A stretch of 64,000 bases of DNA from Natrialba hulunbeirensis JCM 10989 (GTDB lineage Archaea > Halobacteriota > Halobacteria > Halobacteriales > Natrialbaceae): contig NZ_AOIM01000009.1 of assembly GCF_000337575.1 (NCBI RefSeq), forward strand, positions 179,114-243,113. The letters are read 5' to 3'. Made by a program: the position numbers and the translations under genes. The notes below the pieces were generated by a model. It did no database searches. It saw nothing but the letters and a program-made list of their open reading frames with translations, and had not been told where the DNA came from. Within the stretch, counting starts at the first letter, position 1, and the number at the start of each line of letters is the position of its first letter. Below are positions 1 to 45,624 of this stretch, in pieces.

Positions 1-2
1 AT

Positions 3-6156: not shown

Positions 6157-6246
6157 TATCAGTAGTGATATTAGGACGTATTTTGGGTATATGCCGTAGA
6201 TAAATATCGTCCGGCTTAGGCCTGTGAACACTTCTTCGCGCCCGCT

Positions 6247-7050
6247 TTAGTTATCATCTTTTCTGCCGAGAGTTAGATCCGGAGATGCCTCCAAGACGAA
6301 TACACCCCCGTTATCAATAATAGGTTGAGAAATCACACTTCTGTACATCACCTCTATTTCTTCCTCGAAATCAGAATCAATAGGAGCGGGCTCAATTTCT
6401 TTCCCAAAGTATACCATCAGCTTCTCCTCCTCGTTAACAGAAGTCAGAGACTTATCGAACTCCATCCCTTTAGGTGATTGAGCATCTTCGAACCTTTTTT
6501 GAACAACAGATACTCGGCTACTGTTAGCCACGATCACATCTCGAATACCATAATTAGAGGAGACTCGGTCAATATCTAACCTCACCCCATTCACGACCAG
6601 TTTGCCTTCAGGGGAAAGAGAGAACCTTTGGTCACCTACCCAATCCATGACCGGATCAGTGTAATCATCAGAAATAGGCAGGAACAATCGATCTGCACCT
6701 ACAGTATTCTCCACTGCCAACTCGATATCATCCGGTGACAGCTCTCCCTCAATCTGCTTCGAGCCAAATCTTTCATCACCAGCCGAGTTAGCGAGATCTG
6801 TCAAAACGAACTTTTTCTCGCCATTCACCACGCTACGAATGAACGAAGACGTGGTCGGCAGAGTCACTCCTTGTTCGAAAATATTTGTTGGGACACCAGT
6901 CCTCTTCCCAAACTGCAGATATTCCAACTTGGAATCCTTTCTACCTTTGAAGTCTCTAACAGTGAAGAGATCCGGGAGCAGTGACCTATCTTCGTATTCC
7001 TCTTGCATTTCCTCAGCGAAGCCTTTCAACGAGTGCTTGTCAATGCTCAT
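6247..7050 (-). CDS. Hypothetical protein, lower-GC insert between DpdK-like and DpdA-like genes
   Basis: A 267-residue soluble acidic protein with no motif I recognise. It lies on the minus strand inside an otherwise plus-strand block. Its ATG overlaps the stop of the upstream membrane-protein gene by four bases (ATGA), so the two form one transcription unit. Base composition is visibly more AT-rich than the flanking Dpd-like genes, suggesting separate acquisition. The middle of the protein (about 120-215) alternates short hydrophobic strands and charged loops, suggesting a beta-rich fold. Function is unknown; insertion between modification genes is compatible with a defence or addiction role but does not show it. 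Confidence 0.6.
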   Translation of the reverse strand: MSIDKHSLKGFAEEMQEEYEDRSLLPDLFTVRDFKGRKDSKLEYLQFGKRTGVPTNIFEQGVTLPTTSSFIRSVVNGEKKFVLTDLANSAGDERFGSKQIEGELSPDDIELAVENTVGADRLFLPISDDYTDPVMDWVGDQRFSLSPEGKLVVNGVRLDIDRVSSNYGIRDVIVANSSRVSVVQKRFEDAQSPKGMEFDKSLTSVNEEEKLMVYFGKEIEPAPIDSDFEEEIEVMYRSVISQPIIDNGGVFVLEASPDLTLGRKDDN

Positions 7051-7433
7051 GGCTCAACCTCTTCTTCTTGTTCGGTATCGTTCATTTCTTCTGCCTCACT
7101 ATCATTTGAATATCCGTTATCAGCGAACCCATCTTCGCCCCGAGTAACCTCCGCAAAGTCTTCCCCATGACCAGAATTTGTTCTATAATCAGTTAGAGTT
7201 CTATCCAATCTCCCTTCTCGTTGACGCTGAATCTTCTTGTCTACTCTCTTCCCATTAAGACCGTGAGCCAACAAAAGGAAACCCAGAACACCCAATCCAT
7301 GTCTCGGTAGAGGAGACATGACCAAATAAGTGAGAACTGTGTACTCAGCCAGTAATAGAATAAAGCCAATTGAGCTAGTACCAGTATAGTATCCGCTGAA
7401 ATCTGGCCGGGCATAACCTGCCAAGATTACCAT
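7047..7433 (-). CDS. Small membrane protein with acidic tail
   Basis: A 128-residue protein with one or two hydrophobic segments near the N terminus (about 18-42 and 45-56), then a basic stretch (KKIQRQREGR) and a very acidic C-terminal tail rich in Glu, Asp and Asn. By the positive-inside tendency, the tail is probably cytoplasmic. It is the first gene of a two-gene minus-strand unit and overlaps the next gene by four bases. No family is recognised. It could anchor or regulate its partner. Confidence 0.55.
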   Translation of the reverse strand: MVILAGYARPDFSGYYTGTSSIGFILLLAEYTVLTYLVMSPLPRHGLGVLGFLLLAHGLNGKRVDKKIQRQREGRLDRTLTDYRTNSGHGEDFAEVTRGEDGFADNGYSNDSEAEEMNDTEQEEEVEP

Positions 7434-7859
7434 TAGAGCGCCTCTGATTTTCCTTGTTGTTAGTCCGTCTTGAAACTTCGCCTACCATAGCCCCTGGTAT
7501 TTACAACAACGGGTGGCAGGCGTACAGGTCACAGAGTGGGAGTGAGAACTATTCTATGATACCCTCGTACTTATCCCTGAAAGGAAGTCTAATCGCCACC
7601 GATGGAGGTTGGCGATTCCCAAGCTTCCCAAGTGGACGACAATCTTTCTGGAACCGCCGCGTATCCCACAACACGGCAGGTTTGCCGCCCAGATACACAA
7701 TGGGGATTGGTGAACAAAGATATTTTGTCGTTAGAAATGCCCGTGTTACTACACTATCTTATAGGTCACCCAATCAAATGAATAGCTTCGATCTCATCAC
7801 GAGCAAAAGAGACATTCATATGGTGGAACGAGAATAGGCTAAGACGGTGAATCTTATCT
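7434..7859. other. Intergenic region, divergent promoters
   Basis: 426 bases between the minus-strand pair and the first DpdA-like gene. It is AT-richer than the core and should hold promoters for both directions. An open frame at 7454-7837 (plus) lacks a good start and shows no recognisable protein pattern, so I do not call it a gene. Nothing else is seen. Confidence 0.5.
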
Positions 7860-10757: not shown

Positions 10758-10840
10758 TCGCTTCTCTATTCGCATATTTGCCGGGGTTGCTGAGGCGATA
10801 TTGGGGATCAATGAGCTAATCCATACCCGAATAAGACACA

Positions 10841-10850
10841 AATATATAAT
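10841..10850 (+). promoter_or_regulatory. TATA-like box before the second DpdA-like gene
   Basis: AATATATAAT lies about 50-60 bases before the ATG at 10902. That spacing predicts transcription starting near 10872 and a leader of about 30 bases. The gap of 144 bases from the preceding stop supports a separate promoter here. Confidence 0.45.
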
Positions 10851-10901
10851 TTCTATTCGGCCATTATCTAAGTAATAGGACAGCTTAGCCGAGCGGGAGC
10901 C

Positions 10902-11936
10902 ATGTTATACAGACGACGAACACTCAACCTCCCCAGGGGGGAACTAGAGACACCGGTACTCTTCCCAGTTCGTAATCTCGGTAAACGGTCAAGTGACAAC
11001 ACCCCTGCTTATGCGGGCACTATACCAGAATTTTCAGCAGCGATGATCAACGCCCGATCGATCCGCAATCGGAGACCAATGTGGGCGCGTCTTACGAACG
11101 GAACTTCTCTCCGTGAAGAGATGGGGGTGCCCAAAGATACGATTGTGTTTGCAGACAGCGGAGGGTTTGACTTCTCTGCTGAAGAGGTGGATACTACCCC
11201 GGAAGAAACACTCGATACACAACGTCGTCTTGACGCAGATATCTACGGTACAATCGATCTTCCTCTTTCAAGAGAGAATCGGGACGCTGAGAATGAACGT
11301 CGCGTCAACCAGAGCACACAGTACGCTCTCGAAGCAAGCAACCAGCACAACGGCGACGGGTTTCTCTTCGCAAGTGTTCACGGTTATGATCCGGAAACCA
11401 TCCGGAACAACATCCGTTACCTCGAGAAGTACGGCGACTTCGACGGTTATGCGCTCGGGAGTATGGTCCCGATTCGAACCGATTATAAGAAGGTAACTAA
11501 ATTGATACTTTCTGCCAGACAATCAACCGACAAACACCTTCATGTGTACGGACTCGGTGGTCTTGTCTACCAACCACTTCTTCTCTATCTCGGTGTTGAT
11601 AGTTTTGACTCCTCTGCGTTCATCCGTAGTGCAGGAAATCGGAATTATCTCATTCCGGGTTTCGGTGGCGAGGAACTTCGGAATATCGAATCCCTCGAGT
11701 ACCTTCCTTGTCCCTGCCCTGTATGCGGGGAGCGAAGTCTCGACGAGATACGCGAAGACCGAACAGCACTTACTCAGCACAACCTCTGGGCACTTGCAAC
11801 AGAACTTCGGCGATTCCGCTACGTTGCGGAATCGGATCGCAATATTGAGGAATATCTCGATCTGCGCTTTCAGGGCAATGATGTTACACAGCGTGCGTAT
11901 GAAACCGCTAAGCAACAAGTCCGGAGGTTAACATGA
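10902..11936 (+). CDS. Second TGT-like transglycosylase (DpdA-like)
   Basis: A compact 344-residue protein that looks like a TGT catalytic core without a PUA domain. Asp85 lies in DSGGF, the classical TGT motif. FASVHGYD corresponds to the substrate-pocket region. Asp236 in SFDSS matches the TGT nucleophile. A zinc site follows at C270-x-C272-xx-C275 with H293. Its length is shorter than tRNA-modifying archaeal TGT, which argues against a housekeeping archaeosine enzyme. It overlaps the next gene by four bases, so it heads a three-gene unit with 11933-12832 and 12829-13986. Two TGT-like proteins in one block suggest a heteromeric enzyme or two successive base-handling steps; this is inferred. 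Confidence 0.8.
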   Translation: MLYRRRTLNLPRGELETPVLFPVRNLGKRSSDNTPAYAGTIPEFSAAMINARSIRNRRPMWARLTNGTSLREEMGVPKDTIVFADSGGFDFSAEEVDTTPEETLDTQRRLDADIYGTIDLPLSRENRDAENERRVNQSTQYALEASNQHNGDGFLFASVHGYDPETIRNNIRYLEKYGDFDGYALGSMVPIRTDYKKVTKLILSARQSTDKHLHVYGLGGLVYQPLLLYLGVDSFDSSAFIRSAGNRNYLIPGFGGEELRNIESLEYLPCPCPVCGERSLDEIREDRTALTQHNLWALATELRRFRYVAESDRNIEEYLDLRFQGNDVTQRAYETAKQQVRRLT

Positions 11937-12832
11937 GCGATGAGCGATCGACTGTTCGGCCTGTTACACTCAGTCGCCTTGTTGAGCTCACATACGCCTG
12001 TGAGAATGAAACAAGAGAAACAGTGGAACTTGAAGAGAATCTAGATATGAGCCATCGGCGTGCTCGTGAAACCGTTCTTGAAGCAGTCAGAATTGATCTA
12101 CTTTCCGAAGAGGAGACTAGCACCGAACCGGTCTATACGACAACCAATGTCGGGTCCACTTTCCTAAGTGCAATTCAGTCAGAAAACTGGGGAAAAGTAA
12201 GCCAGATACTTGCTACTCGCAGCCCTCACTATGGAGCATTTGTTGATGCCGTTGATGAGTTAGAACATGCCGATCTCGGCACGCTCCTCGAGCAATTAGA
12301 GACTGAGCAGGAATTCACTCCCTATTCATTCAACCAGACTGGTGTTGAGGTCGTCGGCGACTGGGGAGAAAGGCTCGGTCGCGTCCAACGCAATGCCTTC
12401 ACTGGAAGCTATTATCCAGCAGCGCAAACACCGATTCCAAACAATTTCCACTTCATTCTATTAGATGTATACGATGAACTTGAGCAAACTGCCGGCGTTG
12501 ACCTTCGTCAGCGGTATCTCTCTATCCCGCGACTTCGAGAGGTAACGTGTGAGCGACTCAGGTGTACTCGTGAGGCGTTCAATGAGGCACTGCTTGCGCT
12601 CTGTCAGCAGAATATTGGGAAACTCGAACTCTCAGGCGCACCGCTAGATACAGGAGCAAAGAACGCTGCACTCGGCATCAAGCAGATTTCGCTCGCACAC
12701 GACGACGGTCTTGTCTCGACTTCCCAGTCCAGTCAGCAAGTAATGACCGGTGTTGAACAATTCGGAAAACTGTACTACTACCTCGCAGTTCACGATCGCG
12801 ACATCACCTTCACACAGGAGGATTACTCATGA
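11933..12832 (+). CDS. Unrecognised protein of the Dpd-like block (possible winged-helix, DpdG-like position)
   Basis: A 299-residue acidic protein. Residues 10-60 (VELTYACENETRETVELEEN and following) look like a helix-turn-helix, and residues 200-240 (REVTCERLRCTREAFNEALL) like a second helical DNA-binding segment. It overlaps both neighbours by four bases (ATGA), so it is translated with the TGT-like and ATPase genes and probably forms a complex with one of them. In bacterial Dpd islands an uncharacterised protein, DpdG, accompanies the ATPase DpdH. I cannot confirm homology by eye. Confidence 0.6.
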   Translation: MSDERSTVRPVTLSRLVELTYACENETRETVELEENLDMSHRRARETVLEAVRIDLLSEEETSTEPVYTTTNVGSTFLSAIQSENWGKVSQILATRSPHYGAFVDAVDELEHADLGTLLEQLETEQEFTPYSFNQTGVEVVGDWGERLGRVQRNAFTGSYYPAAQTPIPNNFHFILLDVYDELEQTAGVDLRQRYLSIPRLREVTCERLRCTREAFNEALLALCQQNIGKLELSGAPLDTGAKNAALGIKQISLAHDDGLVSTSQSSQQVMTGVEQFGKLYYYLAVHDRDITFTQEDYS

Positions 12833-13986
12833 ACGACGAATTTACCATCACGGACGAACAGCAGGATTACTCGCAATACGACCTCAAAGCAAATCCCTTC
12901 CCGTATAGTCCCGTCCCCGCTGAAGATCCCGAAATCTACTGTGGGCAATCCCACGTCACAGAGAGGATTAGCTCAACGGTCTCCTCGGTGCTTTCAACAG
13001 GTAAATCGAAGCATCTCGTGGTAACCGGGAAATACGGAAACGGGAAGTCTCATACCCTCAAATACACACGTTCCTTGCTTCGCGACCGCAATGACGTCAT
13101 CGTTGGCTACGTTGCCCAGCCCGGTGAAGGTTTCCTCGACATCTATCATGAGTTCACCTACGACCTCGGATTTAACCGGATTCAAGAACTCGCCTACGAG
13201 TATCTCGCTTCAGTTTCACGCGATATCACTGATGCCAACCCGATCAGTGAGGGTGCGATGAAATCTCTTATCGATGAGGGTGATGTCCTCCTTTCCGAGA
13301 TCGTCCCCGAGGCAATTAGGCGATTGAGCGACGTAACAAAGTTTTCGGACTTCGCTCGTGCGATTATCCACATGGTCTACGAAGACACGAACCTCTACGC
13401 TTGGCAGTGGCTTACCGCCGAGGGAATCCGCTATGAGCAACGTAAGGAGATGGAGATCCATAGCGCTCTCGACGACGACACGATGGGTGTCCGTGCGTTC
13501 ACTGCGCTCAAGAATCTTCTCCTCGATCTTGGGTACACTAGCATATTCGTCTTCGTTGATGAATTTGAGAGCATCGCTCGCCTTTCGCCGAAAAACGAAC
13601 AAGCAACGTTGAACAGCATTCGACACTTAATGGATCAGAACAGTTCTGGACTCTGTATGTTGTTTGGTTGTGCTCCTGAAGTCTGGCAGGATGTCATGAG
13701 CGAGTACCATGCTTTTAGTGAGCGTATTGGTCAAGAGGTCGCTCTCCGACCACTAACAGCCGAAAATCTCTATGATCTTGTTGAGAACTATCTTGGCCGG
13801 GAACGGACGATGAGCAGCCATGATAATAGTGTTCATCCATTTACGGAGGACAGCCTTGAACTAATTCTCCAAAATTCACAAGGGAACGTTCGTCAAGTTC
13901 TTTCGGTTTGCAGTCGAATGCTTGATGAAGTCGCAAAGGAGGAGCAATCAAAGATCACTACAGACTTCGCGAAAGAATTTTTCTAA
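12829..13986 (+). CDS. P-loop ATPase (AAA-type, DpdH-like candidate)
   Basis: A 385-residue ATPase. Walker A is GKYGNGKS at residues 67-74. Walker B is VFVDE with D244-E245. A helical lid follows, with a likely sensor region NVRQVLS near 350. The GxGNGKS form of Walker A with a VDE Walker B resembles ATPases of phage-defence systems such as BREX and Dpd rather than replication initiators. It is the last gene of the unit. A role as molecular switch or motor for the helicase and PLD components is inferred. It could instead be a plasmid-type AAA protein, but the overlap with the preceding gene ties it to the TGT-like genes. Confidence 0.7.
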   Translation: MNDEFTITDEQQDYSQYDLKANPFPYSPVPAEDPEIYCGQSHVTERISSTVSSVLSTGKSKHLVVTGKYGNGKSHTLKYTRSLLRDRNDVIVGYVAQPGEGFLDIYHEFTYDLGFNRIQELAYEYLASVSRDITDANPISEGAMKSLIDEGDVLLSEIVPEAIRRLSDVTKFSDFARAIIHMVYEDTNLYAWQWLTAEGIRYEQRKEMEIHSALDDDTMGVRAFTALKNLLLDLGYTSIFVFVDEFESIARLSPKNEQATLNSIRHLMDQNSSGLCMLFGCAPEVWQDVMSEYHAFSERIGQEVALRPLTAENLYDLVENYLGRERTMSSHDNSVHPFTEDSLELILQNSQGNVRQVLSVCSRMLDEVAKEEQSKITTDFAKEFF

Positions 13987-14477: not shown

Positions 14478-16130
14478 TCACTGTAACGGTGGCGGAAGTT
14501 CGTCGATGCGTACCCGAACGTCTTGGTCGTCAATTTGTTCGCACTCAAGCAAGTAAGCGACGTCGTGGATGGACGCATTCAACCGTGTCAAGTACTCGAA
14601 GCCGATTGTATCATCGTCGGAACTCTCGTCGCTATTCGCAACTGATTCCTCGTCGACCTTGTCGGCATCTTCTTGTCTGTTTTCTCTGCGTTCCTTAGCC
14701 CGTTCATCCAAGTCTTCAGCCATATCCTTCGGCTGAACTTTACGCAGGATTTCTCGTGCTCGGTCGAGAACAGCTTCAGAGACGAAAAATACCATTACAG
14801 GGTTGCCACTCCGGTAGACGACACCGTTTTCGGCGAGTCGTCGGACATGGTGCCGGACTGTCGGTTTCGAGAGTCCTACCCGCTGCACGAGTTCCTCATA
14901 AGTAGCTCCGTCGTACTCAGCGATCACCCCAAGGATGTCGTAGACAGCTGTGGTGGATTCTTTAAGTGCTTCCCGGTAGATTTCGGTTGCCACGTCGTCG
15001 TACCGCCGTTGGAGCATCTGGCGGCGGCCTGTCGGGCGTTCGAATTGCCACGATGGCGATGTCGGTCCGTCGAAGTAGTCATCCTCAACGAGGTCTGACC
15101 GTTCAATACCGGCCCAGCGGGCATGCGTTGCGACAACCGTTCGTAGATGATCCAGTATATCGTCCCACTCGCTGACATGCGGGAGTTTGCCACGATCAAC
15201 CCCAGCGTACGAAGCCTCAAGTTTGGGATGATGGAACGGATCACTCTGGGGCCTCTTGTGCCACTGCTTCGCCTGATAAATCTTCACCTCCGTGCTGTAC
15301 CGTTGGGGCTCAAATCCCAGTAGATTCCATCGATTGCTCTCGATGAGCGCTTCGAGCCAGCCTTCTTTCTGCCGCTTCTGGTGTGCCTCAATCTCCGAAT
15401 GGCCACCCCAGTCGATGAGTTGCTTCGACTGCTCGAGAGTGTCGACGGCAGCGCCTTTCTTGTCGATGTTGAACCGGATGTGCGCTTCGACTTTCAGGAT
15501 ACGCCGGGCGTCGTCGACGCGATAATTTAGATCGACAGCGTCGGCCCCGTAGACCGCACGAAGTGCGTCGTACATCCGCCGTTCGATCTCCATGGGATCT
15601 TCCGCCCAGGTTGTCCAGGCGAGCAGGCGCGTTCCCTCGCCATACGGACACTTAAGAGCGTCTCCGCTTTTGTACACCATGTCGTGGAATTGCGGCATAA
15701 TCTCGATGTGCAGCGCCAGCGGTGGCTTTCGCAGCTGCTTTTCATCGTCCTCATCGAGTTCCCACTCACGGAGCATCAGGTGCTGTTCGAAGTACGCTCG
15801 ATAGTCGTCACCAAGTCCTATTCCGGCCTTCCAGCGTGACGACGTAAGCACGAGTGCATAGTTACCGGGTGGGAGCCAGTCAGCGTCGAAGTCTTCGACT
15901 ACAACATGCGGCCCCTGGTCGACGTCACCAACGTGTTTGCGCCAATAACCTACTGACTGGCCATACAGTGTCCCTCGGTCGTCAGGTCGGTCCGCATCGG
16001 GATTCTTGACATCGGCGAGATGATTCATTACTGCCGCACCATGTGCTCGGGGACGAGGGAAAGAATCAGACTCAGTGTCTGTCGGTTTGTCGAACTCTAC
16101 CGGGTCATCCGGTACCCCGGCTTCACTCAT
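14478..16130 (-). CDS. Conserved haloarchaeal accessory protein with winged-helix domain
   Basis: A 550-residue acidic protein. The first two thirds is a large domain without a motif I recognise. Residues 400-450 form a winged helix: YDILGVIAEYDGATYEELVQ, then LSKPTVRHHVRRLAENGVV, as in MarR/ArsR-type DNA-binding domains. The C terminus is Ser/Asp/Glu-rich. Proteins of this type recur on haloarchaeal plasmids and integrated elements; I believe the N-terminal part corresponds to a DUF-type family (possibly DUF7845). A role in element replication or regulation is plausible but unproven. The stop lies next to the 491-base gap. Confidence 0.65.
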   Translation of the reverse strand: MSEAGVPDDPVEFDKPTDTESDSFPRPRAHGAAVMNHLADVKNPDADRPDDRGTLYGQSVGYWRKHVGDVDQGPHVVVEDFDADWLPPGNYALVLTSSRWKAGIGLGDDYRAYFEQHLMLREWELDEDDEKQLRKPPLALHIEIMPQFHDMVYKSGDALKCPYGEGTRLLAWTTWAEDPMEIERRMYDALRAVYGADAVDLNYRVDDARRILKVEAHIRFNIDKKGAAVDTLEQSKQLIDWGGHSEIEAHQKRQKEGWLEALIESNRWNLLGFEPQRYSTEVKIYQAKQWHKRPQSDPFHHPKLEASYAGVDRGKLPHVSEWDDILDHLRTVVATHARWAGIERSDLVEDDYFDGPTSPSWQFERPTGRRQMLQRRYDDVATEIYREALKESTTAVYDILGVIAEYDGATYEELVQRVGLSKPTVRHHVRRLAENGVVYRSGNPVMVFFVSEAVLDRAREILRKVQPKDMAEDLDERAKERRENRQEDADKVDEESVANSDESSDDDTIGFEYLTRLNASIHDVAYLLECEQIDDQDVRVRIDELPPPLQ

Positions 16131-20877: not shown

Positions 20878-21141
20878 TTAGTGGTTGCCAGTAGCCTCGT
20901 CGAGCGCCCGAAAGAGCATCACGACAGTGGCCGCTGCAAGACCCATTGTCACCAGTGCGGAGAGAACCTGTAAATTATATCCTCTGACCTGGGTGGTAGT
21001 CCAGAGTTGGATCCCGGTCGCAAGCAGCAACGCCAGCCCAAGGGTGCGGGAGCGGTTCACGCCAATATCTTCGACAACCACTACCAAAAGTGGTGGCAGC
21101 CACAAAGTTCCCGTATGATACGTGTATCGAGCGGGAGTCAT
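20878..21141 (-). CDS. Small membrane protein of accessory region
   Basis: An 87-residue protein from the ATG at 21141 (MTPARYTYHTGTLWLPPLLV). Three hydrophobic stretches are visible: about 12-25, 33-47 and 58-76, so it is a small integral membrane protein. It is divergent from the conserved gene at 21203, with only 61 bases between starts. No family name is known to me. Confidence 0.6.
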   Translation of the reverse strand: MTPARYTYHTGTLWLPPLLVVVVEDIGVNRSRTLGLALLLATGIQLWTTTQVRGYNLQVLSALVTMGLAAATVVMLFRALDEATGNH

Positions 21142-21202
21142 GGAACAGTTCACATCCCTTGCGACCCGTGGATCTTTGACACGTGCCGACCATCATTCCG
21201 GT

Positions 21203-22183
21203 ATGGCTTTCAGCGTCTCGTGGCATACGCTTCTCGACGAACTTGACGATCTACCGGTCGGAGCCACGCTGATTACGCCGCTGTCGCACAACCGGTTTCG
21301 GGTGAATGATGTACAAGAGCAGCGGGTCATCATCGAATTCCTTGACCGCGACATCGATACCACGCAACCGCTCCAGCGCGAGCAATTCGAAACCCTCTAT
21401 CGCCGAATCACTGAGGAGGCAGGCAGTTTCGAAATCGACAGGCTGCCATCCGACGCCGACCCGTATCCCGCCGTCTTGAGTCTTCACCCGCGGTTCGAAA
21501 TCGACGAGGAGCAGGGAATGATCGTTGAGAAGGAGGGGCCGACCACCAACCAACTACTCACCACTGAAAACGAATCTGTGGCCGACGAGCAAGACCGCAC
21601 TGAACCGGATCTCGACGTGTACGCTGATGCACTCCTGCTCGTTGACGCGCTCGAGCGCCACGATGTGACTGCGCTGGAGGAGATGGAGACTGATGCACTA
21701 GTGAACATCTATACGGTTCTCTCAGATGTCCAGCGGAATGCGAACGCTTTCCGGCAGGATGTGGCCGACATCCTACTCAATCGGCTCCATCACGACCGCC
21801 CTGTGAGTGGGCCGTTCGGCTCCGTCCAGCGGACGACACGCACGAATCGTTCGCTTCGAGATGACGAAGATGTCCTGAAAACCCTCGAAGAGGCCGGAAT
21901 TGACCGCGAGCGCGTGCTGGGTGTGGATCGTGACAAGGTCGATGATGCGTTGGAGGTTACGAACCTGTCCGAGAGTGATGTCTACCAGATTGAGGAATCC
22001 AGCTACGTTCGCAAGGCCGACGTCGATGAAGAGCGCAAGGAGACGCGCCTCCAAGGGCTCAAGGATCAACTTGCGGCATCAGAGGGGGAGAAGGCCGAAG
22101 ACCTCCGCGACGAGATTGAAGATCTCGAAGCACGCATTGACGAACTCACGAGTTTTCGGACCGGCGCAGAAGTTCACGAGTGA
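21203..22183 (+). CDS. Conserved haloarchaeal mobile-element protein of unknown function
   Basis: A 326-residue acidic protein from the ATG at 21203 (MAFSVSWHTLLDELDDLPVG). Part 1 (1-115) is a beta-rich domain with LITPLSHNRFRVNDVQEQRV. Part 2 (about 140-205) is helical. The C terminus (270-320) is a coiled coil (DEERKETRLQGLKDQLAASE). The N-terminal pattern recurs on haloarchaeal plasmids and integrated elements. It may act in element maintenance; no function is established. Upstream in-frame codons overlap the divergent promoter, so I prefer the internal ATG. Confidence 0.65.
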   Translation: MAFSVSWHTLLDELDDLPVGATLITPLSHNRFRVNDVQEQRVIIEFLDRDIDTTQPLQREQFETLYRRITEEAGSFEIDRLPSDADPYPAVLSLHPRFEIDEEQGMIVEKEGPTTNQLLTTENESVADEQDRTEPDLDVYADALLLVDALERHDVTALEEMETDALVNIYTVLSDVQRNANAFRQDVADILLNRLHHDRPVSGPFGSVQRTTRTNRSLRDDEDVLKTLEEAGIDRERVLGVDRDKVDDALEVTNLSESDVYQIEESSYVRKADVDEERKETRLQGLKDQLAASEGEKAEDLRDEIEDLEARIDELTSFRTGAEVHE

Positions 22184-24511: not shown

Positions 24512-24965
24512 GTGGCTACGAATTACAGCAGTAGTTGGTAGCATGCTTTCTTTATTTATAGTGACGCGTGAAACTCATGTTCAGTATAGGTGAAACATCT
24601 ATCGAACAGTGTGCATGGCTCTGATGCGAATTCAGGGATGAAGCAGCACATCCTTCGGTATATTCGAGGTGACGCTGCGAGCGAGACGATGGATATCTCA
24701 ATAAAGTTGATCGTGAAGACGTCCGAGAAAAGTACCTGACTGTGGGGTATCATAGAATACGTCTCGTACTCTCTGCCAGAACTGTCGCCGTTCGGGATCC
24801 CATCGGCTTTCAAGTGGAGGAAGACGTCCACAAAGAGGATTAATCTGTCGTCAGAACTTTGGTAAGGCTCGCTGTGAGGATTGGTTTGTATCCGTCGAGA
24901 TGGGTGGAACGGACTTGTGAGTTGTGGCATACCCGCCCGTGAGGTCCGTCCATCTCATAGAAATT
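24512..24965. other. Intergenic region with direct repeat and decayed coding sequence
   Basis: About 450 bases. It starts with the repeat copy at 24527-24597. From about 24690 to 24842 the plus strand reads DGYLNKVDREDVREKYLTVG and then VAVRDPIGFQVEEDVHKED before a stop; an upstream stop cuts the same frame. This looks like the tail of a broken gene, perhaps a transposase. An opposing open frame (24556-24930, minus) has no protein-like pattern. Confidence 0.4.
24527..24597 (+). repeat. Diverged 70-bp direct repeat, left copy
   Basis: Starts AGCAGTAGTTGGTAGCA, has a central TTTCTTTA block, and ends TTCAGTATAGGTGAAACA. The same blocks in the same order and spacing recur at 31800-31869. I count roughly 75-80% identity, with one one-base gap. 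It may be an insertion-sequence end or an attachment-type repeat. Confidence 0.65.
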
Positions 24966-28714: not shown

Positions 28715-29467
28715 CTACTCTTTGACTCGGGGGGCGATTATCATGTGTGAGGTTATTCCGCTTCTCTTTGATTCGAGTTTCAGCACCCCCTCATTTCCAA
28801 TAGATAAATCGATCTCATGCGAATTCATCTCTTTCAGGAAAGAATGGACCGGGTCAATGGCGTAACGATATTCAAAGTCCTGGAGATCATCGCTGTAGAT
28901 ATTCTCCATTACTTCTCCTTTCCCATCCACCATGTCAGAGACTGAAATCCAGAGTTCGCCGTCATCATGCTGTAACTCTACAACATTCGATATTTTCCCC
29001 ATCATGTTCAGGTTCTTCCGGAGCGGCGGCCTCTCTAAGGACCCGATTTCTTTTGAGGAGTGTAGCGATCTTGCTTCTTGGAACTCAGATTCCGAGATTA
29101 GGAACAGTGTGAACGTAGTGGGGGTTGCAAACCAGCTTTCCATGATTTCTATTTCGAACTGATCCCGATCAAAACGTAGTTCGACTCGGTCGACATCAGC
29201 ACCTTTTATCAGCGATCTCAGTGTTTGAGATCCGAACGAGAATCGTGCATTTTCAGCGACCTCGATATCAATATCGGAGTTGTCATCCCGTAATTCATGG
29301 AGCACCTGTATCGAGGATATATGCCGGGCGTAGATCTTGATCGAGTTGTCCTCATTGGCGAGTAGATGAATATCGATTGGTTGGTCGTCTGCTGCTTGAG
29401 ATACCTCGTGCAGACTGTCTAAGATCTTGATCAAATTGTCCCGTTTGATCTGGATTTTCGCAATCAT
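28715..29467 (-). CDS. Divergent PCNA-like sliding clamp
   Basis: 250 residues, against about 247 for haloarchaeal PCNA. Its layout follows PCNA from end to end. The N terminus AKIQIKRDNLIKILDSL matches the first clamp strand and helix. FSFGSQTLRSLIKGA and RVELRFDRDQFEIEI match the segment before the interdomain connector. A second-domain stretch resembles KISNVVELQHDDGELWISVS. The end YRYAIDPVHSFLKEMNSHEI then MIIAPRVKE mirrors PCNA's FSLDYLKDMNKAI and MLAPRI. Core clamps are much more conserved, so this is a diverged paralogue. It is last in a three-gene operon, starting 3 bases after the preceding stop. It may load the operon's proteins on DNA or mimic the host clamp. Confidence 0.72.
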   Translation of the reverse strand: MIAKIQIKRDNLIKILDSLHEVSQAADDQPIDIHLLANEDNSIKIYARHISSIQVLHELRDDNSDIDIEVAENARFSFGSQTLRSLIKGADVDRVELRFDRDQFEIEIMESWFATPTTFTLFLISESEFQEARSLHSSKEIGSLERPPLRKNLNMMGKISNVVELQHDDGELWISVSDMVDGKGEVMENIYSDDLQDFEYRYAIDPVHSFLKEMNSHEIDLSIGNEGVLKLESKRSGITSHMIIAPRVKE

Positions 29468-29470
29468 AGG

Positions 29471-30403
29471 TTATCCGGAAATCTCCAGGTTGTCTTGGAT
29501 ATCTCTAAGGATTCTGTTGCAGTACCTTGGTTCTTTGATTAGGGATTCCTTTTTCCATTTGTATTGGTTTTGGTCCTTGCTTTTCTCCATGAGATTGAAT
29601 CGCCGGAGCATACTGCTCATGTATTTCTGCCAATGTTTTATTCGCTCTTTGCGGGGAAGATGCCCGAGCATTGGCGGATTGATCTGGGTCATGATACGGT
29701 CAATATCGGCGAAGTCTACTTTTGCTACTCGTTCTCGTGAGCAGTGTTTGATAAGACGGTTGCAGAACTCGAATTTTAACAGGGCTTCGTCAGTGTTTCT
29801 TGTGAAGTGGAGGAGATCGCTGCTGTTAGGATATACTTCGAGCTTGTTACAGATCGTGTCCTCTAAATCCATGTTCGAGTGTGTTCCCAATTCTTTCCAG
29901 ATTCTGGAAGTGCCGTTAGAGTTTATCAGCCAAAGGATCAGATCGTTCTCTGAGATCATGTCTGAGATTGTGGCTTCGAATTTCTGGTAGAGGTCTTGCG
30001 ATAATGTGATGACGATCTCGTGATGTGAGGGTGTGAAGTCATGACCATGAAGTTCCACATAGTTCGTAACCATCTGATCGGTGATATTGGCGTATTTGAG
30101 TGCGTCAGAGAGCCGGTCTTCGATTTCTATTTTCTTCTGTGAATCGTTCTCGAATTGGGTATGAAGGTTTGAGAAATCCTCTACTGTGATATGTTGGACG
30201 TCGCCTGTAGAGTTGAAGGCTAGTAAGTCCGGTTCGTAGGTTTCAGATCCGTTTTCTAGTTTGGGATCTGGATAGCCTGAGTAACCGTAGTCGCAGAGCT
30301 GTGTGCCCCAGCTGATCTGCCGTGAGTAGAGTGCATAGATTTGGCTGAGGTACACAGTGTGGGGATCATTCCATGAGAGCTGCTGATAGGGTGATACCGC
30401 CAT
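29471..30403 (-). CDS. Unknown protein of the PCNA-like operon, possible nuclease
   Basis: A 310-residue protein. Residues 55-78 (TYEPDLLAFNSTGDVQHITV, then ED) resemble the strand layout of PD-(D/E)xK nucleases, with P58-D59 and E75. The expected Lys is absent, so the match is weak. The remainder is helical, with a basic patch near 250-290 (LPRKERIKHWQKYMSSMLRR) that could bind nucleic acid. Its start overlaps the upstream stop (TAATG), and the PCNA-like gene follows after 3 bases. Low GC and no known relatives by eye. Confidence 0.65.
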   Translation of the reverse strand: MAVSPYQQLSWNDPHTVYLSQIYALYSRQISWGTQLCDYGYSGYPDPKLENGSETYEPDLLAFNSTGDVQHITVEDFSNLHTQFENDSQKKIEIEDRLSDALKYANITDQMVTNYVELHGHDFTPSHHEIVITLSQDLYQKFEATISDMISENDLILWLINSNGTSRIWKELGTHSNMDLEDTICNKLEVYPNSSDLLHFTRNTDEALLKFEFCNRLIKHCSRERVAKVDFADIDRIMTQINPPMLGHLPRKERIKHWQKYMSSMLRRFNLMEKSKDQNQYKWKKESLIKEPRYCNRILRDIQDNLEISG

Positions 30404-31668
30404 TACTGTCCCTCCTCCATGATTCCGTCACTGCCAGATTCAGAAGGGGTCATGATATCCATGTCCTCTATGTCGATGATATCCTCCCTGACCCGGGGAT
30501 CATATTTCTCTTTTATCTTGTTGTAGAGGTATGTGAGACTGGCTGTTGATGCAGTAACGGGCTTGATATAGAGAGCTGGCCGGGGTTCGCTGTCCGGTTC
30601 TTCTACTGAGGTGAAGAATATTTCAAATCGGCCTTCGTCGAAGGGAGTATTTGTTTCGGCTAAGAATTCTAGATCATCTCTGCCTTTGACTACTCCGTAT
30701 AGATCGACATCTGACTGGCCTACTGTCAGCAAATTAGATAGCTTGATGCTGGCCTCTGGGGTGTACTCTTTTTCTGTGAAAACTAATTTGAGAACTCGTG
30801 GAGGCCTGTATTCCTTGAGCTGGATGATCCCGTGCTCATTTTCTTCGTATTCGCGTTTTGGGATCACTTCTTCTAGCTCATCATAGGCTCCGCGCTGGCT
30901 CTCCAGTTCCTCAAATAAGTGGAATGTAGCGCTGGGTGATCCAGTCCTATGAACTACTTGGCCTTCTTGCCGTATGGTTACGCGAGATGAGGGGGAGCTA
31001 GCTTGTACGCCGCCATCTTGTCGGAAGTCGCTTTCCGGAGGGATTTGGTATTCGAATCGGGAGCGGGAGATCTCTGATTTCTCGAGTAGGTCTTTTTGGA
31101 CTCCTTCTTTCAATGCGTTGTCTACCAGCCATCGTGGTGTCTTGAGGTTGAATTCGATTTCTTGCTCTACGAATTCGTTGATGTTGTCGAAGTAGTAGTC
31201 GTGGAGATGGTCGGGGATGTCGGAGTCGTGTTGATAGATCCAGTAGGGATCCCATCTACGTTCTATTGAGACGCTTTCGTCCTTCGGTGTGTAGGATTGG
31301 TAGAGATCATTGATTTTGTCGCCCTCAAAGCTGACATCTAGCATCCATCCGACGCGGTTGTGTATGTCGGATAGTTTGTTTCTTAAAGACTTGTTTGTGC
31401 TACTTGAGTAGGCGATCAGCCAGCGTTCTTCTGAGAGGCTCCAGAGTAGTATTGGCGAGCTATTGACTCGTACTATGTGTTCGTCTCCTTCTGTTTCTCG
31501 GAATGACAGCTCATTTTCATTGGTTCCCAGCTTCTGGAATAGGTCTTGTATATTTGTCTTGGTTAATTCTTTTGAGGCGTAGTATTGGTTGAGATAGATG
31601 TTTCTTCCTTCATCGATATCTTCTTTGAAGTAGGCCTTTGTGGTTTCCTTTATTGTTTCTATACCCAT
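30403..31668 (-). CDS. Unknown protein heading the PCNA-like operon
   Basis: A 421-residue acidic protein beginning MGIETIKETTKAYFKED. The first 130 residues alternate helices and strands around SPILLWSLSEERWLIAYSSS, a layout reminiscent of restriction-type N-terminal domains. A charged middle part is followed by a beta-rich section (PRVLKLVFTEKEYTPEASIK, DVDLYGVVKGRDDLEF). I recognise no family or catalytic motif. It is the first gene of a tightly packed unit (1-base overlap, then 3-base gap) and would set its expression. Confidence 0.65.
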   Translation of the reverse strand: MGIETIKETTKAYFKEDIDEGRNIYLNQYYASKELTKTNIQDLFQKLGTNENELSFRETEGDEHIVRVNSSPILLWSLSEERWLIAYSSSTNKSLRNKLSDIHNRVGWMLDVSFEGDKINDLYQSYTPKDESVSIERRWDPYWIYQHDSDIPDHLHDYYFDNINEFVEQEIEFNLKTPRWLVDNALKEGVQKDLLEKSEISRSRFEYQIPPESDFRQDGGVQASSPSSRVTIRQEGQVVHRTGSPSATFHLFEELESQRGAYDELEEVIPKREYEENEHGIIQLKEYRPPRVLKLVFTEKEYTPEASIKLSNLLTVGQSDVDLYGVVKGRDDLEFLAETNTPFDEGRFEIFFTSVEEPDSEPRPALYIKPVTASTASLTYLYNKIKEKYDPRVREDIIDIEDMDIMTPSESGSDGIMEEGQ

Positions 31669-31799: not shown

Positions 31800-31869
31800 A
31801 GCAGTAGTCGGTAGCACTATTTCTTTATCCAGTATTAGATGTGAAATCATATTCAGTATAGGTGAAACA
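31800..31869 (+). repeat. Diverged 70-bp direct repeat, right copy
   Basis: Matches the copy at 24527-24597 in order and orientation: AGCAGTAGTCGGTAGCA, TTTCTTTA, GTGAAA, and TTCAGTATAGGTGAAACA. The sequence after the repeat differs between the copies. The intervening 7.2 kb contains the HNH, Lrp/IS630 and PCNA-like genes. Confidence 0.65.
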
Positions 31870-35055: not shown

Positions 35056-35526
35056 CTACCTTCCCTCTTCGGGCGCTGGTTCTTCGAATTGGAGCGCCTC
35101 TTGGACGGCATCAGGAAGCGATGGCCGCGGAGCTGTTTCGTGTCGGCGAACTTTCTCTGATTTGTTCGTCTCTTCGTAGACTGCCCGGGCGACCGGGACA
35201 CCACGAAGGAAGTTGTGTTCGTACAGTACGTCGACGCCACGTTCGGTTGGGCCCCAAAACCGAGACGGCAGATCACGTGTGGAGATGTTCGGCTCGTGGA
35301 CGTAGACGTCCAAGAGGCCGGCCTCTTGAAGCGTCTCGAGTTGATCGAGAATCGCCCCCTCATTTTTCTGGATCATGTAGGTGAGTTCGGCAAGCGACGC
35401 GAGGTGGTGAGGATGGCCCAGCAAACACTGGACGATCAGGTGACGAGTCTCCTGGGAGAGTAACTCCCGCATTTCGCGTTGCTCGGCGAAAGGGTCATCG
35501 AAGACATCGTCCGCCGTATGGCTCAT
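35056..35526 (-). CDS. ArsR-like winged-helix regulator
   Basis: A 156-residue protein from the ATG at 35526 (MSHTADDVFDDPFAEQREMR). The winged helix spans about 20-85: LLSQETRHLIVQCLLGHPHH, SLAELTYMIQKNEGAILDQL and TLQEAGLLDVYVHEP. A conserved stretch RFWGPTERGVDVLYEHNFL follows, then a proline-rich tail. This family is common in haloarchaea and often lies beside a gene like that at 35641, as here, in divergent orientation. The two probably share a regulated promoter region. Confidence 0.75.
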   Translation of the reverse strand: MSHTADDVFDDPFAEQREMRELLSQETRHLIVQCLLGHPHHLASLAELTYMIQKNEGAILDQLETLQEAGLLDVYVHEPNISTRDLPSRFWGPTERGVDVLYEHNFLRGVPVARAVYEETNKSEKVRRHETAPRPSLPDAVQEALQFEEPAPEEGR

Positions 35527-35640
35527 AGTGGACTGTAGCATAGCTCTGCATTTAACGATTTGGGACAACTAAGTGAGTACATATCCCAAATAACTAAGTT
35601 AATCAGAAGACGTATCACTGTACCAGTTGTCGAACGAAAT

Positions 35641-36420
35641 ATGACAACTCCATCTGTACCGCCGAACGCCGGACAAATTATGGGTGCTGTCCGTCGCGCT
35701 CTGCGCAACGTTGATGTCACACCGACAGAAGCGATGGATATTCTCTCGTGGGCACAGGACGAACTCCCAGCCATCTACGAACGGGATCAGACGGCATATC
35801 TCGTCTTGGGAAGTTATCGGTCGCCCTATATCCGCCGGGTGCGGTCGGTAAGTGATCGACTCAATCGCCGCTACGGGACCTATGCCTTCCTGATCGGCGA
35901 TCTGGACGATATCGATGTCTCACGACTCCCCGAGTTTCGCGTCAAGTTTCATCTGACAGCGGCGCTCGCCGACTACATCACGACCATTATCGAGCAGGAT
36001 GCAGGCGGCGAGATTAACGAACTGGGCAAACTTTCGGAGACAGAATATTTCAGGAAGACGCATGTCCTGCCGCGAGGCTACCGGTGGGACACAGAATCAA
36101 ATCTTCGAGACAGGGAAGACGTATTCGCTGCAGCGGCTCAAATCGAGGCCGCAACTGGTGCTGACGAGGAGACGAAGCAGTCCGAGTTATCGAAACTTGT
36201 CGATCGAGCCACTACGGCTGGGATTGACGTGACTGTCGATGATCTCACAGAGTGGCTTGCCGATCATGAGTTAGCGGTTCCCTCCTACAGCTGGGTCCAG
36301 TTGAACGATTTCAGACTGTTCGAGTTGCAGGACCGGTGTTACCCATGGCTAACCGAAGATGAGTTGGTAGAACGAACAGACGAATTACCAGGTTCTCCGC
36401 GACCTCAGTGGGAGGAATGA
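35641..36420 (+). CDS. Conserved haloarchaeal protein, partner of the winged-helix gene
   Basis: A 259-residue protein from the ATG at 35641 (MTTPSVPPNAGQIMGAVRRA). It has a conserved core: YLVLGSYRSPYIRRVRSVSD and YAFLIGDLDDIDVSRLPEFR, which look like alternating strands and helices of a small alpha/beta domain. The C-terminal half is helical. No catalytic motif is recognised. Divergent from the ArsR-like gene with 114 bases between starts. Last gene before the island's right boundary. Confidence 0.6.
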   Translation: MTTPSVPPNAGQIMGAVRRALRNVDVTPTEAMDILSWAQDELPAIYERDQTAYLVLGSYRSPYIRRVRSVSDRLNRRYGTYAFLIGDLDDIDVSRLPEFRVKFHLTAALADYITTIIEQDAGGEINELGKLSETEYFRKTHVLPRGYRWDTESNLRDREDVFAAAAQIEAATGADEETKQSELSKLVDRATTAGIDVTVDDLTEWLADHELAVPSYSWVQLNDFRLFELQDRCYPWLTEDELVERTDELPGSPRPQWEE

Positions 36421-36701
36421 TAATGACTTTACATATATTTAGAGATTTCGATTTTTAGCCAGTAGAGTATGGAGATAATGGCGTGGCTGTATTGGTTGGC
36501 AAATTAGATGTTCGGGGTTTGTCCGCGTCTTTTAAATACCGAAATCGTTCATCGAATGTGGATTGCCCATAAGGCATCGCTCCGGGGATTTATGTAGAAA
36601 GGCCCGAAAATAACTGGTAGCCACCGAGTCAGAGTCAATATAGACGGGAAAAACCGAGATCGGCCGTACTTGCTTGCGATTTCCGTTTGTGAGCGAGGCG
36701 T
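36421..36701. other. Intergenic region at the right end of the island
   Basis: AT-rich stretch (TTTACATATATTTAGAG near 36427) before the tRNA-Glu scar. No gene recognised. No integrase is visible here, so it should be at the island's other end. Confidence 0.4.
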
Positions 36702-36746
36702 GCCCTCTCACGGCAATGACCAGGGTTCGAATCCCTGTCGGAGCAC
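36702..36746 (+). other. attR-type duplication of the tRNA-Glu(CTC) 3' half
   Basis: The sequence contains the anticodon arm TGCC-CTCTCAC-GGCA (anticodon CTC), the variable region, the T arm CAGGGTTCGAATCCCTG and the 3' acceptor strand TCGGAGC plus discriminator A. The 5' half (D arm and 5' acceptor) is missing upstream. This is the scar left when an element integrates into the 3' part of a tRNA gene. The orientation places the element to the left and the intact tRNA-Glu outside the window. Confidence 0.85.
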
Positions 36747-37121: not shown

Positions 37122-39836
37122 ATGCAACTCCACAACAGGGATGTCCGACAGGACGTCCGAGAACTCGGTGCACTACTCGGCGACGTTCTCGAGGACCAGA
37201 CCTCACGACAGGCCTTCGAGACGGTCGAATCGTGTCGGCGAGCGGCAATCGACTACCGGGCTGGCGAACTCGAGTCCCGTGACTCACTCATCGCCGAACT
37301 CGAGGGACTGTCGCCACACCAGCAACGCATCGTCGCGCGGGGGTTCACCTCGTACTTCGAACTGATCAACCTGGCCGAAGAGCGAGAGCGGGTGCGCTCG
37401 ATCCGCACTGAGTCCCAGGAGGGGACACTCGAGGACAGCCTCGAAACGGCGGCGGCAGAACTCGGTGAGGAGGATATCGAGACGGTACAGCAGGTACTCG
37501 ATGACGTGCTGATCGAGCCCACGTTTACGGCGCATCCGACCGAGGCGCGACGCAAGACGGTCAAGTCGAAGCTACGCGCGATTTCGATGGCACTCGAGAC
37601 GCTCGACGAGCGGCTGTTGACCGACAAGGAGTCGGGGCAGGTCTGGGCGGACATCGACTCGGAGGTGACGAGCCTCTGGCAGACGCCCCAGGTTCGCAAC
37701 CGCCAGCCCGAACCGGAGGACGAGGCCCGAAACGTTCAGTGGTACCTGCAGAACACGCTGTTCGACGTAGTCGGTGAGATTTACGACGAGTTCGCCGACG
37801 CGATCGACGAGGAGGTGGCGAGCGACCTCGATATTCCGAAGCTGTTCGAGTTCCGCTCGTGGGCCGGCAGCGACCGCGACGGCAACCCCTACGTGACGCC
37901 GGACGTGACCGCGCGGACGCTCGAACGCCAGCGGTCGGTCGTCCTCGACCGCTACCGGGAACAGCTCAAACGGCTCTCTGGTGTGTTGAGTCAGGACGGC
38001 AGCCGGATCGACCCCGGCTCCGAGTTCCAGGCGGCACTCGAGTCGGATCGCGAGCGGCTGCCGGGGACCGCCAGGACCGCGGCGGAACGCTACCCGGACG
38101 AACCCTACCGCCAGAAACTCAAGCTGATGCGCGAGCGGCTTGACCGCGTGGGTGACGTTCGACCGGGCGGCTACGACGACGCCGAGGAACTGCGAGCCGA
38201 CCTCACGGCCATCGCTACGAGCCTGCGGGACAACGGCGCGGCGAGCGTCGTCGAGGCCCACGTCGATCCGATTCGACGGCAGGTCGCCACGTTCGACTTC
38301 TCGCTCGCGAGTCTCGACCTGCGAGACCACCAGCAGAAACACACCGACGCGATCGCGGAGGCACTCGAGTCCGAGGGGATCGACTACCACGCCCTGTCCG
38401 AAGACGAACGGGCGGAGCTGTTGACCGACGCAATCTTGCAGGACGAACCGGTGATCGACCTGGCCGATGCGGTGAGCGACGATCTCTCGGACGACTCCGC
38501 GCGCGTTCTGCGGCTGTTCGACAGCCTCGCCGACTGGCAACGCGAGTACGGCGTCGAGGCGATCGACACCTACTGCATCTCGATGACCGAGGAGCCGAGC
38601 CACGTCCTCGAGGTGCTGTTCCTGGCCGACCAGGCCGGTGTCGTCTCGCTGCCGGAACACTGTGGTATCGACGTCGTCCCGCTGCTCGAGACCGAGTACG
38701 CGCTTTCGGGGGCGCGCCGGATTATGGGCTCGCTGTTCGAGAACGAGGCCTACGTCCAGGCGCTCGAAGCGCGCGGGCGCACCCAGGAGATCATGCTCGG
38801 CTACTCCGACTCGAACAAGGAGAACGGCTTCCTGGCGGCGAACTGGTCGCTGTACAAGAATCAGCGTCGGCTCGGCGAGATCTGTGACGACCACGACGTG
38901 ACGATGCGGCTGTTCCACGGCCGTGGTGGCTCCATCTCGCGGGGTGGCGGCCCGATGAACGAAGCGCTGCTCGCGCTGCCAAACAGCACCGTGACGGGCC
39001 AGGTCAAGTTCACCGAGCAGGGCGAGGCGATCGCCGAGAAGTACGCCAACCCGCGCATCGCCGAGCGCAACATCGAGCAGATGCTCAACGCCCAGCTTCG
39101 GGCGCGCCTCTACGCGAAAGACCAGCCCGAAGACGAGATTCGCGAGGAGTGGATCGAGGCCATGGAGACAATGGCCGACGCGGCCCGCCGCGAGTACCGC
39201 GACCTCCTGGAGAGCGACGGCTTCGTCCGGTACTTCGAACAGGCGACGCCGATTACCGTCATCGAGGACCTGGACCTCGGCTCGCGGCCCGCCTCGCGTT
39301 CCGGCGAGCGGACCGTCGAGGACCTGCGGGCGATTCCGTGGGTGTTCTCCTGGACCCAGTCCCGGTGCATCCTGCCGGGCTGGTACGCCATTGCGACGGG
39401 AATCGACGCGTACCTGGATGGCGATGGGCCACAAGACGACGGCGGCGACGTGGAGACGCTCCAGACCATGTACGAGGAGTGGCCGTTCTTCCGAACCACG
39501 CTCGACAACGCCGCGCTCTCGCTCTCGCGGACCGAACTCGAAATCGCCGAGCAGTACGCGAACCTCGCGGACGAGGATCTGCGCGAGCAGTTCTTCCCAC
39601 GGCTGACCGGCGAGTACGAGCGCGCAGCCGACCTGATCACCGACATCGGCCAGCGCGACCAGCTTCACACCCGCGACTGGCTCGGTGAGAACCTGGAGCG
39701 ACGAAACCCCTACGTCGACCCACTGAACCTGCTTCAGACGTACCTTCTCGACAGAACCCACCGGACCGACATCGAAGAACGAACGCTCCGGCTGACGGTG
39801 AAGGGGATCGCGGCGGGGATGAAAAACACTGGGTAA
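37122..39836 (+). CDS. ppc: Phosphoenolpyruvate carboxylase
   Basis: A 904-residue protein of the bacterial-type PEP carboxylase family, which adds bicarbonate to phosphoenolpyruvate to give oxaloacetate and refills the citric acid cycle. Signature motifs are present: catalytic His138 in FTAHPTEARRKTV, GSDRDGNPYV near 249, GYSDSNKENGF near 560, and the substrate loop FHGRGGSISRGGGP near 597. Length matches the family. It is a cytoplasmic core gene, monocistronic here, with high GC unlike the island. The long open frames on its opposite strand are composition shadows. Confidence 0.97.
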   Translation: MQLHNRDVRQDVRELGALLGDVLEDQTSRQAFETVESCRRAAIDYRAGELESRDSLIAELEGLSPHQQRIVARGFTSYFELINLAEERERVRSIRTESQEGTLEDSLETAAAELGEEDIETVQQVLDDVLIEPTFTAHPTEARRKTVKSKLRAISMALETLDERLLTDKESGQVWADIDSEVTSLWQTPQVRNRQPEPEDEARNVQWYLQNTLFDVVGEIYDEFADAIDEEVASDLDIPKLFEFRSWAGSDRDGNPYVTPDVTARTLERQRSVVLDRYREQLKRLSGVLSQDGSRIDPGSEFQAALESDRERLPGTARTAAERYPDEPYRQKLKLMRERLDRVGDVRPGGYDDAEELRADLTAIATSLRDNGAASVVEAHVDPIRRQVATFDFSLASLDLRDHQQKHTDAIAEALESEGIDYHALSEDERAELLTDAILQDEPVIDLADAVSDDLSDDSARVLRLFDSLADWQREYGVEAIDTYCISMTEEPSHVLEVLFLADQAGVVSLPEHCGIDVVPLLETEYALSGARRIMGSLFENEAYVQALEARGRTQEIMLGYSDSNKENGFLAANWSLYKNQRRLGEICDDHDVTMRLFHGRGGSISRGGGPMNEALLALPNSTVTGQVKFTEQGEAIAEKYANPRIAERNIEQMLNAQLRARLYAKDQPEDEIREEWIEAMETMADAARREYRDLLESDGFVRYFEQATPITVIEDLDLGSRPASRSGERTVEDLRAIPWVFSWTQSRCILPGWYAIATGIDAYLDGDGPQDDGGDVETLQTMYEEWPFFRTTLDNAALSLSRTELEIAEQYANLADEDLREQFFPRLTGEYERAADLITDIGQRDQLHTRDWLGENLERRNPYVDPLNLLQTYLLDRTHRTDIEERTLRLTVKGIAAGMKNTG

Positions 39837-45534: not shown

Positions 45535-45624
45535 CTACGTGTCCCGTATAATTTCGCGTCCAGCCGGATCGCTCCGACTTCCTCTATCCTCCGGCGGTGA
45601 GACCGACTGCGAATCTCGTGCCAT
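45535..45624 (-). CDS. Possible leader ORF (29 aa) upstream of cimA/leuA
   Basis: Reads MARDSQSVSPPEDRGSRSDP then AGREIIRDT. Its ATG is about 27 bases after a TATA-like CTTAAGA (45652-45658), exactly where a leaderless haloarchaeal transcript would begin translation. The synthase start lies 310 bases further on. It could be a regulatory leader peptide. There is no run of branched-chain codons of the classical attenuator type, and the case rests on position only. Confidence 0.35.
   Translation of the reverse strand: MARDSQSVSPPEDRGSRSDPAGREIIRDT

Follow-up and report, generated by a model that had tools for sequence, protein, structure and literature searches.

The locus analysed here raises the question of whether a partial tRNA gene, found where gene content appears to change, is the end of an integrated element and, if so, how this element was inserted and what it carries. 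The window, i.e. the whole stretch of 64,000 nucleotides that was analysed, corresponds to C9:179114-243113 of the genome under study (G000, contig C9). The original prediction held that a partial tRNA-Glu(CTC) gene at 36702-36746 forms the right end of an accessory island, that an intact copy and an integrase lie to its left, and that a Dpd-like block and a PCNA-like operon travel together on one element or on a stack of elements.

Both junctions and the empty site

Sequence comparison places the partial gene on the plus strand at 36701-36745, one base to the left of its predicted position. It corresponds to positions 31-75 of tRNA-Glu(CTC), starts in the 5' strand of the anticodon stem and lacks the 5' part of the gene. 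ARAGORN calls a tRNA-Ser as the sole tRNA in the window and makes no call at 36701-36745, as would be expected of a fragment. In a search of the whole of G000, the fragment finds itself and one second place, C9:155921-155967 (E = 2.5e-14 by BLAST). This place lies in an intact tRNA-Glu(CTC) gene at about C9:155891-155965 (to 155966 according to ARAGORN), outside the window and 59.9 kb to the left of the fragment. The two copies are identical at 43 of the 45 positions, and the match extends to window 36747. Besides these two copies, the best 45-base match on both strands of 93,113 contig bases reaches 25/45, and a chance origin of the fragment match is excluded. The predicted change from accessory to core genes at this point agrees with the jump in G+C content, which is 51.0% in the island as against 60-67% in the window to the right of 37000, and with the PEP carboxylase gene (904 aa, 37122-39836, plus strand) that belongs to the core chromosome right of the element. 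Farther along this core region, the window also contains a leuA-Halobacteria RNA (RF03001, 69.6 bits) on the minus strand at 45546-45598.

On the left, a complete tyrosine integrase gene (367 aa; PF00589, E 3e-17) starts 164 bp behind the intact tRNA and on the same strand. In an alignment of this integrase with 23 homologues, R216, K244, H321 and Y351 are invariant in 24/24 sequences, and R320 and H342 are kept in 23/24, with a single sequence (L078) deviating at both; we take these six residues to be the catalytic positions of the tyrosine integrase family. An intact tRNA, a 3' fragment in the same orientation on its 3' side and a complete integrase gene inside the element are thus all present. 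The same order of tRNA, integrase and fragment, the same orientation and the same crossover are found in the anticodon-centred class of tRNA-borne islands in Islander, and nothing essential differs from that class as it is outlined there (PMC4383910).

One congener, G003, has the site without the island. There, a single intact tRNA, identical to the fragment at 45/45 positions, is followed directly by the right flank of the window and by the PEP-carboxylase gene, which lies ~380 bp behind the tRNA. The locus is uninterrupted: its alignment with the left flank of the island extends as far as tRNA position 77, that with the right flank begins at tRNA position 31, and the 10 kb fetched around it contain no tRNA fragment. 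Among the informative congeners, there is no case of a partial tRNA at a site free of an island. The intact tRNA and the integrase on the left together with the empty site in G003 imply that an integrative element is borne by this tRNA and that the window covers its right part. Another congener, G004, carries a separate 5.4-kb element at the same place, which has an integrase (65% identical) and a tRNA fragment of its own. In G005, a stretch of ~1.5 kb that contains an open frame separates the tRNA from the PEP-carboxylase gene, and no tRNA fragment lies between the two. By eye, the frame in this stretch (L043, G005:C1, about 3690-5380) resembles a hybrid-cluster protein gene; the first bases of the stretch resemble the left end of the element in G004, and it is perhaps a remnant. 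In G001, G002 and G006, the tRNA and the PEP-carboxylase gene are on separate contigs, which makes these genomes uninformative for the empty site.

It is conceivable that partial tRNA duplicates arise in other ways, and the fragment would then be a chance similarity or an unrelated tRNA pseudogene at a break in composition. No tool result favours this explanation, and the precise empty site in G003, the integrase adjoining the intact copy and the agreement in break position among 10/10 att pairs from 10 genomes make it extraordinarily improbable. By contrast, we are highly confident that 36701-36745 is the attR of a 59.9-kb integrative element borne by tRNA-Glu(CTC), C9:155891-215858, which has its own recombinase and was inserted by strand exchange within positions 31-51. 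The fragment, then, is the displaced 3' part of the host's original tRNA-Glu(CTC) and the right end of the element, and the proposal that the island ends at a 3' duplication of this tRNA holds, in agreement with the intact copy to the left and the empty site. Both ends of a 60-kb accessory block are in this way fixed, and about 36.7 kb of the block fill the left part of the window.

Strand exchange and the tRNA allele

Bases 52 and 66, partners in one base pair of the T stem, are the two differences between the intact tRNA and the fragment. The pair is T:A in the intact tRNA (attL) and A:T in attR; it is A:T in G003, G004 and G005, and G:C in G001, G002 and G006. Among the genus genomes G000-G006, T:A is restricted to the attL of G000. 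Because G003 and the fragment share A:T while the intact tRNA has T:A, the fragment represents the old allele of the host and the intact tRNA is foreign, presuming that the T:A pair was not made by two mutations after the insertion. Elsewhere in the family, the T:A allele is found in full-length tRNA matches with 100% identity in G024 and G095. It looks native in at least these two genomes, which fits an outside origin but is no proof of it.

The switch of alleles at 52:66 places the strand exchange within positions 31-51, i.e. between the anticodon arm and the variable loop, and with a crossover before position 52 the present tRNA carries an element-borne 3' half. In other words, the allele difference in the T stem serves as a natural map of the crossover point. 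Of the two sites originally proposed, the anticodon loop and the T arm, the former is retained in the wider form of the anticodon arm and variable region, while the T arm is ruled out by the switch at 52:66. In the two-copy pairs of 10 genomes, identity sets in at position 30-33 in 10/10 cases and extends over 43-46 bp to the 3' end; the repeat begins at position 34 at a Natronomonas locus (L069) and at position 32 in a more distant relative at tRNA-Leu (L076). Most likely, the anticodon loop (35-41) is the natural crossover site, which is resolved to an interval rather than to a base. The other nine att pairs show no such T-stem difference, barring decay in G004, and the allele difference is therefore particular to G000.

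Based on these data, we suggest the following model for the insertion. The attP of the element would have contained a duplicate of the 3' part of a tRNA-Glu(CTC) gene, and the element's own tyrosine recombinase would have joined this site to the tRNA-Glu(CTC) gene of the host. At the left junction, this would have generated a whole and presumably working tRNA composed of the host 5' part and the element 3' part. At the right junction, the old 3' part of the host gene, severed from its promoter, would have come to lie in front of the PEP-carboxylase region. The integrase behind the intact tRNA presumably performed the insertion and is predicted to be still active, and the 60 kb probably arrived in a single step.

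The original prediction had named integrases of the SSV type or of haloarchaea. In SSV-type (self-splitting) integration, attP lies inside the integrase gene, which is cut in two upon insertion, and an att repeat of ~45 bp as observed here is the usual length for this class (PMC8371274). However, the integrase gene at this locus is a single uninterrupted ORF that starts outside the tRNA, and no piece of an integrase is present at attR, where the last listed ORF, with its end at 36420, matches no family. We consider the chance of an SSV-type insertion to be negligible, and what is left of the prediction is a classical haloarchaeal enzyme of the HSTV2-like kind. Integration of the SNJ2 type, which is described as using a short att of 13 bp located at the tRNA 3' end (PMC8371274), was considered separately and rejected, given an identity block of the length and starting position reported above.

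Cargo of the island and its probable unity

The island carries a set of genes at C9:165521-193099, i.e. window 1-13986 and the adjoining sequence to the left (L004). Two YprA/MrfA-like helicases are encoded in tandem, one of 1842 aa (DEAD and Helicase_C) and one of 1819 aa (window 1-4190, whole gene C9:177844-183303) with Helicase_C and a borderline MrfA Zn-binding domain, as scanned in its 1379-aa window part. Like the second helicase, the genes that follow are on the plus strand and encode a PLD-family protein (658 aa, 4180-6156; PF13091, 27.7 bits vs a cut-off of 27), DpdA fused to a DUF6884 (DpdC-like) domain (965 aa, 7860-10757), a second tRNA-guanine transglycosylase-like protein (TGT; 344 aa, 10902-11936), a 299-aa protein (11933-12832) conserved beside DpdA in G023, G029, G032, G060 and G080, and a BrxC/BrxD-like ATPase (385 aa, 12829-13986). 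A CARF-type regulator and a weak DpdH-like protein of 1026 aa are also part of the set, and the island additionally encodes a GmrSD protein. In the majority of the other family genomes with DpdA and DUF6884, the two are encoded by separate, neighbouring genes.

In a preprint, BRIGADE has been described from halophilic archaea alone, as a system that usually combines a 7-deazaguanine cluster and a PLD or PD-(D/E)xK nuclease with two YprA helicases, whose place in the YprA tree separates type I from type II (PMC12458937). With this description the cargo shares two YprA/MrfA-like helicases, 7-deazaguanine transglycosylases as DNA-modification genes, a PLD protein as the putative nuclease and the halophilic host. 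Judged by these similarities, the set appears to be BRIGADE-like. That a Dpd-like block is on the element is well supported, with DpdA scoring 275.6 against an NCBIfam cut-off of 200. At E <= 1e-20, DpdA is present in 19/125 family genomes and in 0/6 of the other congeners. By coordinates, it lies between two tRNA copies in two of these 19 genomes, G000 and G023; the latter, from another genus, has a homologous set bounded by the same tRNA on one side and by its remote second copy on the other. The tRNA-Glu(CTC) element is, therefore, one way in which BRIGADE-type defence could spread between genera. As a general rule, a location of DpdA cargo at tRNA-Glu(CTC) does not hold, since in the other genomes DpdA is on another contig or far away, a count in which draft assemblies could hide cases.

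The PCNA-like operon is a block of three genes on the minus strand (28715-31668; 421, 310 and 250 aa), the last of which (28715-29467) is a weak sliding-clamp candidate. Five of its seven matches among PDB sequences are sliding clamps (E 0.11-0.5), and it matches the NCBIfam PCNA model at E 7e-4 with 19 bits vs a cut-off of 293. No match was found in Pfam or PHROGs and no relative in viral contigs or in the 124 other family genomes; AlphaFold, run without an alignment, gave a mean pLDDT of 38.5, too low to be informative. The operon lies within the att-bounded island as predicted, while its identity as PCNA is weak. The Dpd-like and the clamp-like genes of the window thereby lie on a mobile element. 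Because the clamp-like gene is found in 1/125 family genomes, and no relative carrying the same 60-kb cargo was found, we infer rather than observe that the whole block moves as one unit.

Whether the island is one element or a stack was left undecided in the original prediction. In a tandem stack at tRNA-Glu, the Dpd-like and the clamp-like blocks would be on separate elements. Consistent with such a stack, the G+C content varies along the island, and two further integrase-like genes lie inside it: a second integrase 1.3 kb behind the first (C9:158556-159668, L003:8556-9668), which is 41% identical to it and keeps the catalytic positions, and a more distant gene at C9:161080-162168. Both could be relics of other elements. 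Moreover, a 71-bp direct repeat, 79% identical (window 24527-24597 and 31800-31869), brackets a 7.3-kb segment with the clamp-like genes; it is possibly the trace of a nested insertion or a shared regulatory sequence. However, each element of a tandem array leaves behind a tRNA fragment of its own (PMC4383910), and the island with its flanks contains only two tRNA copies, the next best match of 25/45 being at noise level. Internal att copies were found neither by a mismatch search, nor by BLAST self-comparison, nor by full 45-mer scoring. An Rfam search of window 1-37000 for relics of tRNAs or other RNAs, with E values up to 5 allowed, gave just two weak matches of other kinds, and the part of the island left of the window was screened for RNA genes by ARAGORN alone. 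Finally, a second integrase near the first is also present in other elements with one att pair.

Evidence from Natrialba swarupiae (L081) bears on the same point. At this locus, a tRNA with the same T:A pair precedes sequence shared with the G000 element, namely a piece of the integrase 5' end (92% identical over 70 residues) and, next to it, two right-end genes (92.6% identical at the DNA level over 1449 bp); the locus has no second copy of the tRNA. In the window, these two genes are at 35560-36420 (plus strand, 286 aa, no Pfam match, 93% identical to the copy in the decayed L081 element) and at 35056-35568 (minus strand, 170 aa, 97% identical to its copy). L081 resembles a copy of the G000 element that has lost its interior, and the adjacency of the integrase piece and the right-end genes argues that the left and right ends of the element belong together, which speaks against a stack. 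Altogether, a stack is improbable, and we favour a single element, which may have gained cargo stepwise by other routes.

A provirus related to HSTV-2-like tailed viruses would be an alternative to a virus-free genomic island. The closest relatives of the integrase in the phage collection are from these tailed haloviruses (47.2% identity over 98% of its length), and the genes at 14478-16130 and 21122-22183 match PHROG families with E 4e-266 and 1e-186, respectively. By contrast, 0/20 scanned island proteins match a head, tail or packaging family of PHROGs, neither of the two genes has a match in the phage collection, the gene at 14478-16130 has none in plasmids, and the integrase has no confirmed match in IMG/VR. 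Thus, while HSTV-2 is described as a free virus (PMC8371274), the scanned cargo of the G000 element is without virion genes, and a provirus is very unlikely. The best plasmid relative of the integrase, at 64%, is from a Natrinema plasmid.

Related integrases and their use of tRNA-Glu(CTC)

The arrangement of integrase and tRNA-Glu has been known since 2011, and the element in G000 is a well-resolved further case. Loci reported at that time in Hfx. volcanii, Hgm. borinquense and Nab. magadii have an integrase next to a complete tRNA-Glu and a truncated copy 5-48 kb downstream (PMC3119063). The same source describes genomic island 3 of Haloquadratum, at tRNA-His, with a 43-nt 3' repeat at its far end and with a second integrase, a helicase and restriction genes in its interior. 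The G000 element shares with the tRNA-Glu loci the integrase behind the complete tRNA and the truncated copy downstream; it is set apart from them, as they are presented there, by its length of 59.9 kb, its BRIGADE-like cargo and tRNA copies that differ at one T-stem pair (PMC3119063).

For the HSTV2 family of integrases, a criterion of >=30% identity over 60% has been given (PMC8371274), and the enzyme of G000 exceeds both values in its match to the HSTV-2 enzyme. All 31 loci with this integrase bear haloarchaeal or uncultured-archaeon titles, in line with the restriction of the HSTV2 family to Halobacteria; outside Halobacteria there are distant partial matches, on two Alkalihalophilus plasmids (26%). 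At E <= 1e-60, the integrase is present in 54/125 family genomes. Of 73 matches, 23 sit <=600 bp behind tRNA-Glu(CTC), as determined from coordinates copied by hand, and this position is taken by 21/27 matches with at least 61% identity vs 2/46 below. Of the 31 named loci, 19 lie just downstream of a tRNA-Glu(CTC), two of a tRNA-Glu(TTC), three of a tRNA-Gly and one of a tRNA-Leu, and no tRNA was found in front of the other six.

Using an exact core pattern, a second core copy was detected in 10/22 integrase-bearing genomes and none in the other 12, while a reversed control pattern gave 0 matches in the 22 genomes. In eight of the ten, the second copy is on the same contig, and all eight are on the strand of the tRNA and on its 3' side. 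Elements in several genomes, e.g. G023, G056, G072 and G107, likewise have a second integrase close to the first. Partial scans of three other elements (34/66 ORFs) gave matches to pAgo, type IIG restriction, HerA, GmrSD and Lamassu-like proteins and also to Cdc6, transporters and metabolic genes. The G000 element belongs to a widespread haloarchaeal family that uses tRNA-Glu(CTC) and has variable cargo, which in G000 comprises the BRIGADE-like set and many uncharacterised genes. We speculate, and hold the case to be evenly balanced, that elements with HSTV2-like integrases use tRNA-Glu(CTC) across genera for defence cargo including BRIGADE, swap in their own allele of the tRNA 3' half and in this way pass compensated tRNA variants between species.

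The distance between the att copies is 5.4 kb in G004, 39 kb in G114, 60 kb in G000, 64 kb in G083 and 76 kb in G056, and reaches 156 kb in G023, 162 kb in G109 and 288 kb in G064. The last three pairs may be explained by elements of very large size or composite make-up or by chromosomal rearrangement; they lie at G023:C1:2054630-2210286, G109:C1:3243590-3405631 and G064:C1:1685246-1973514.
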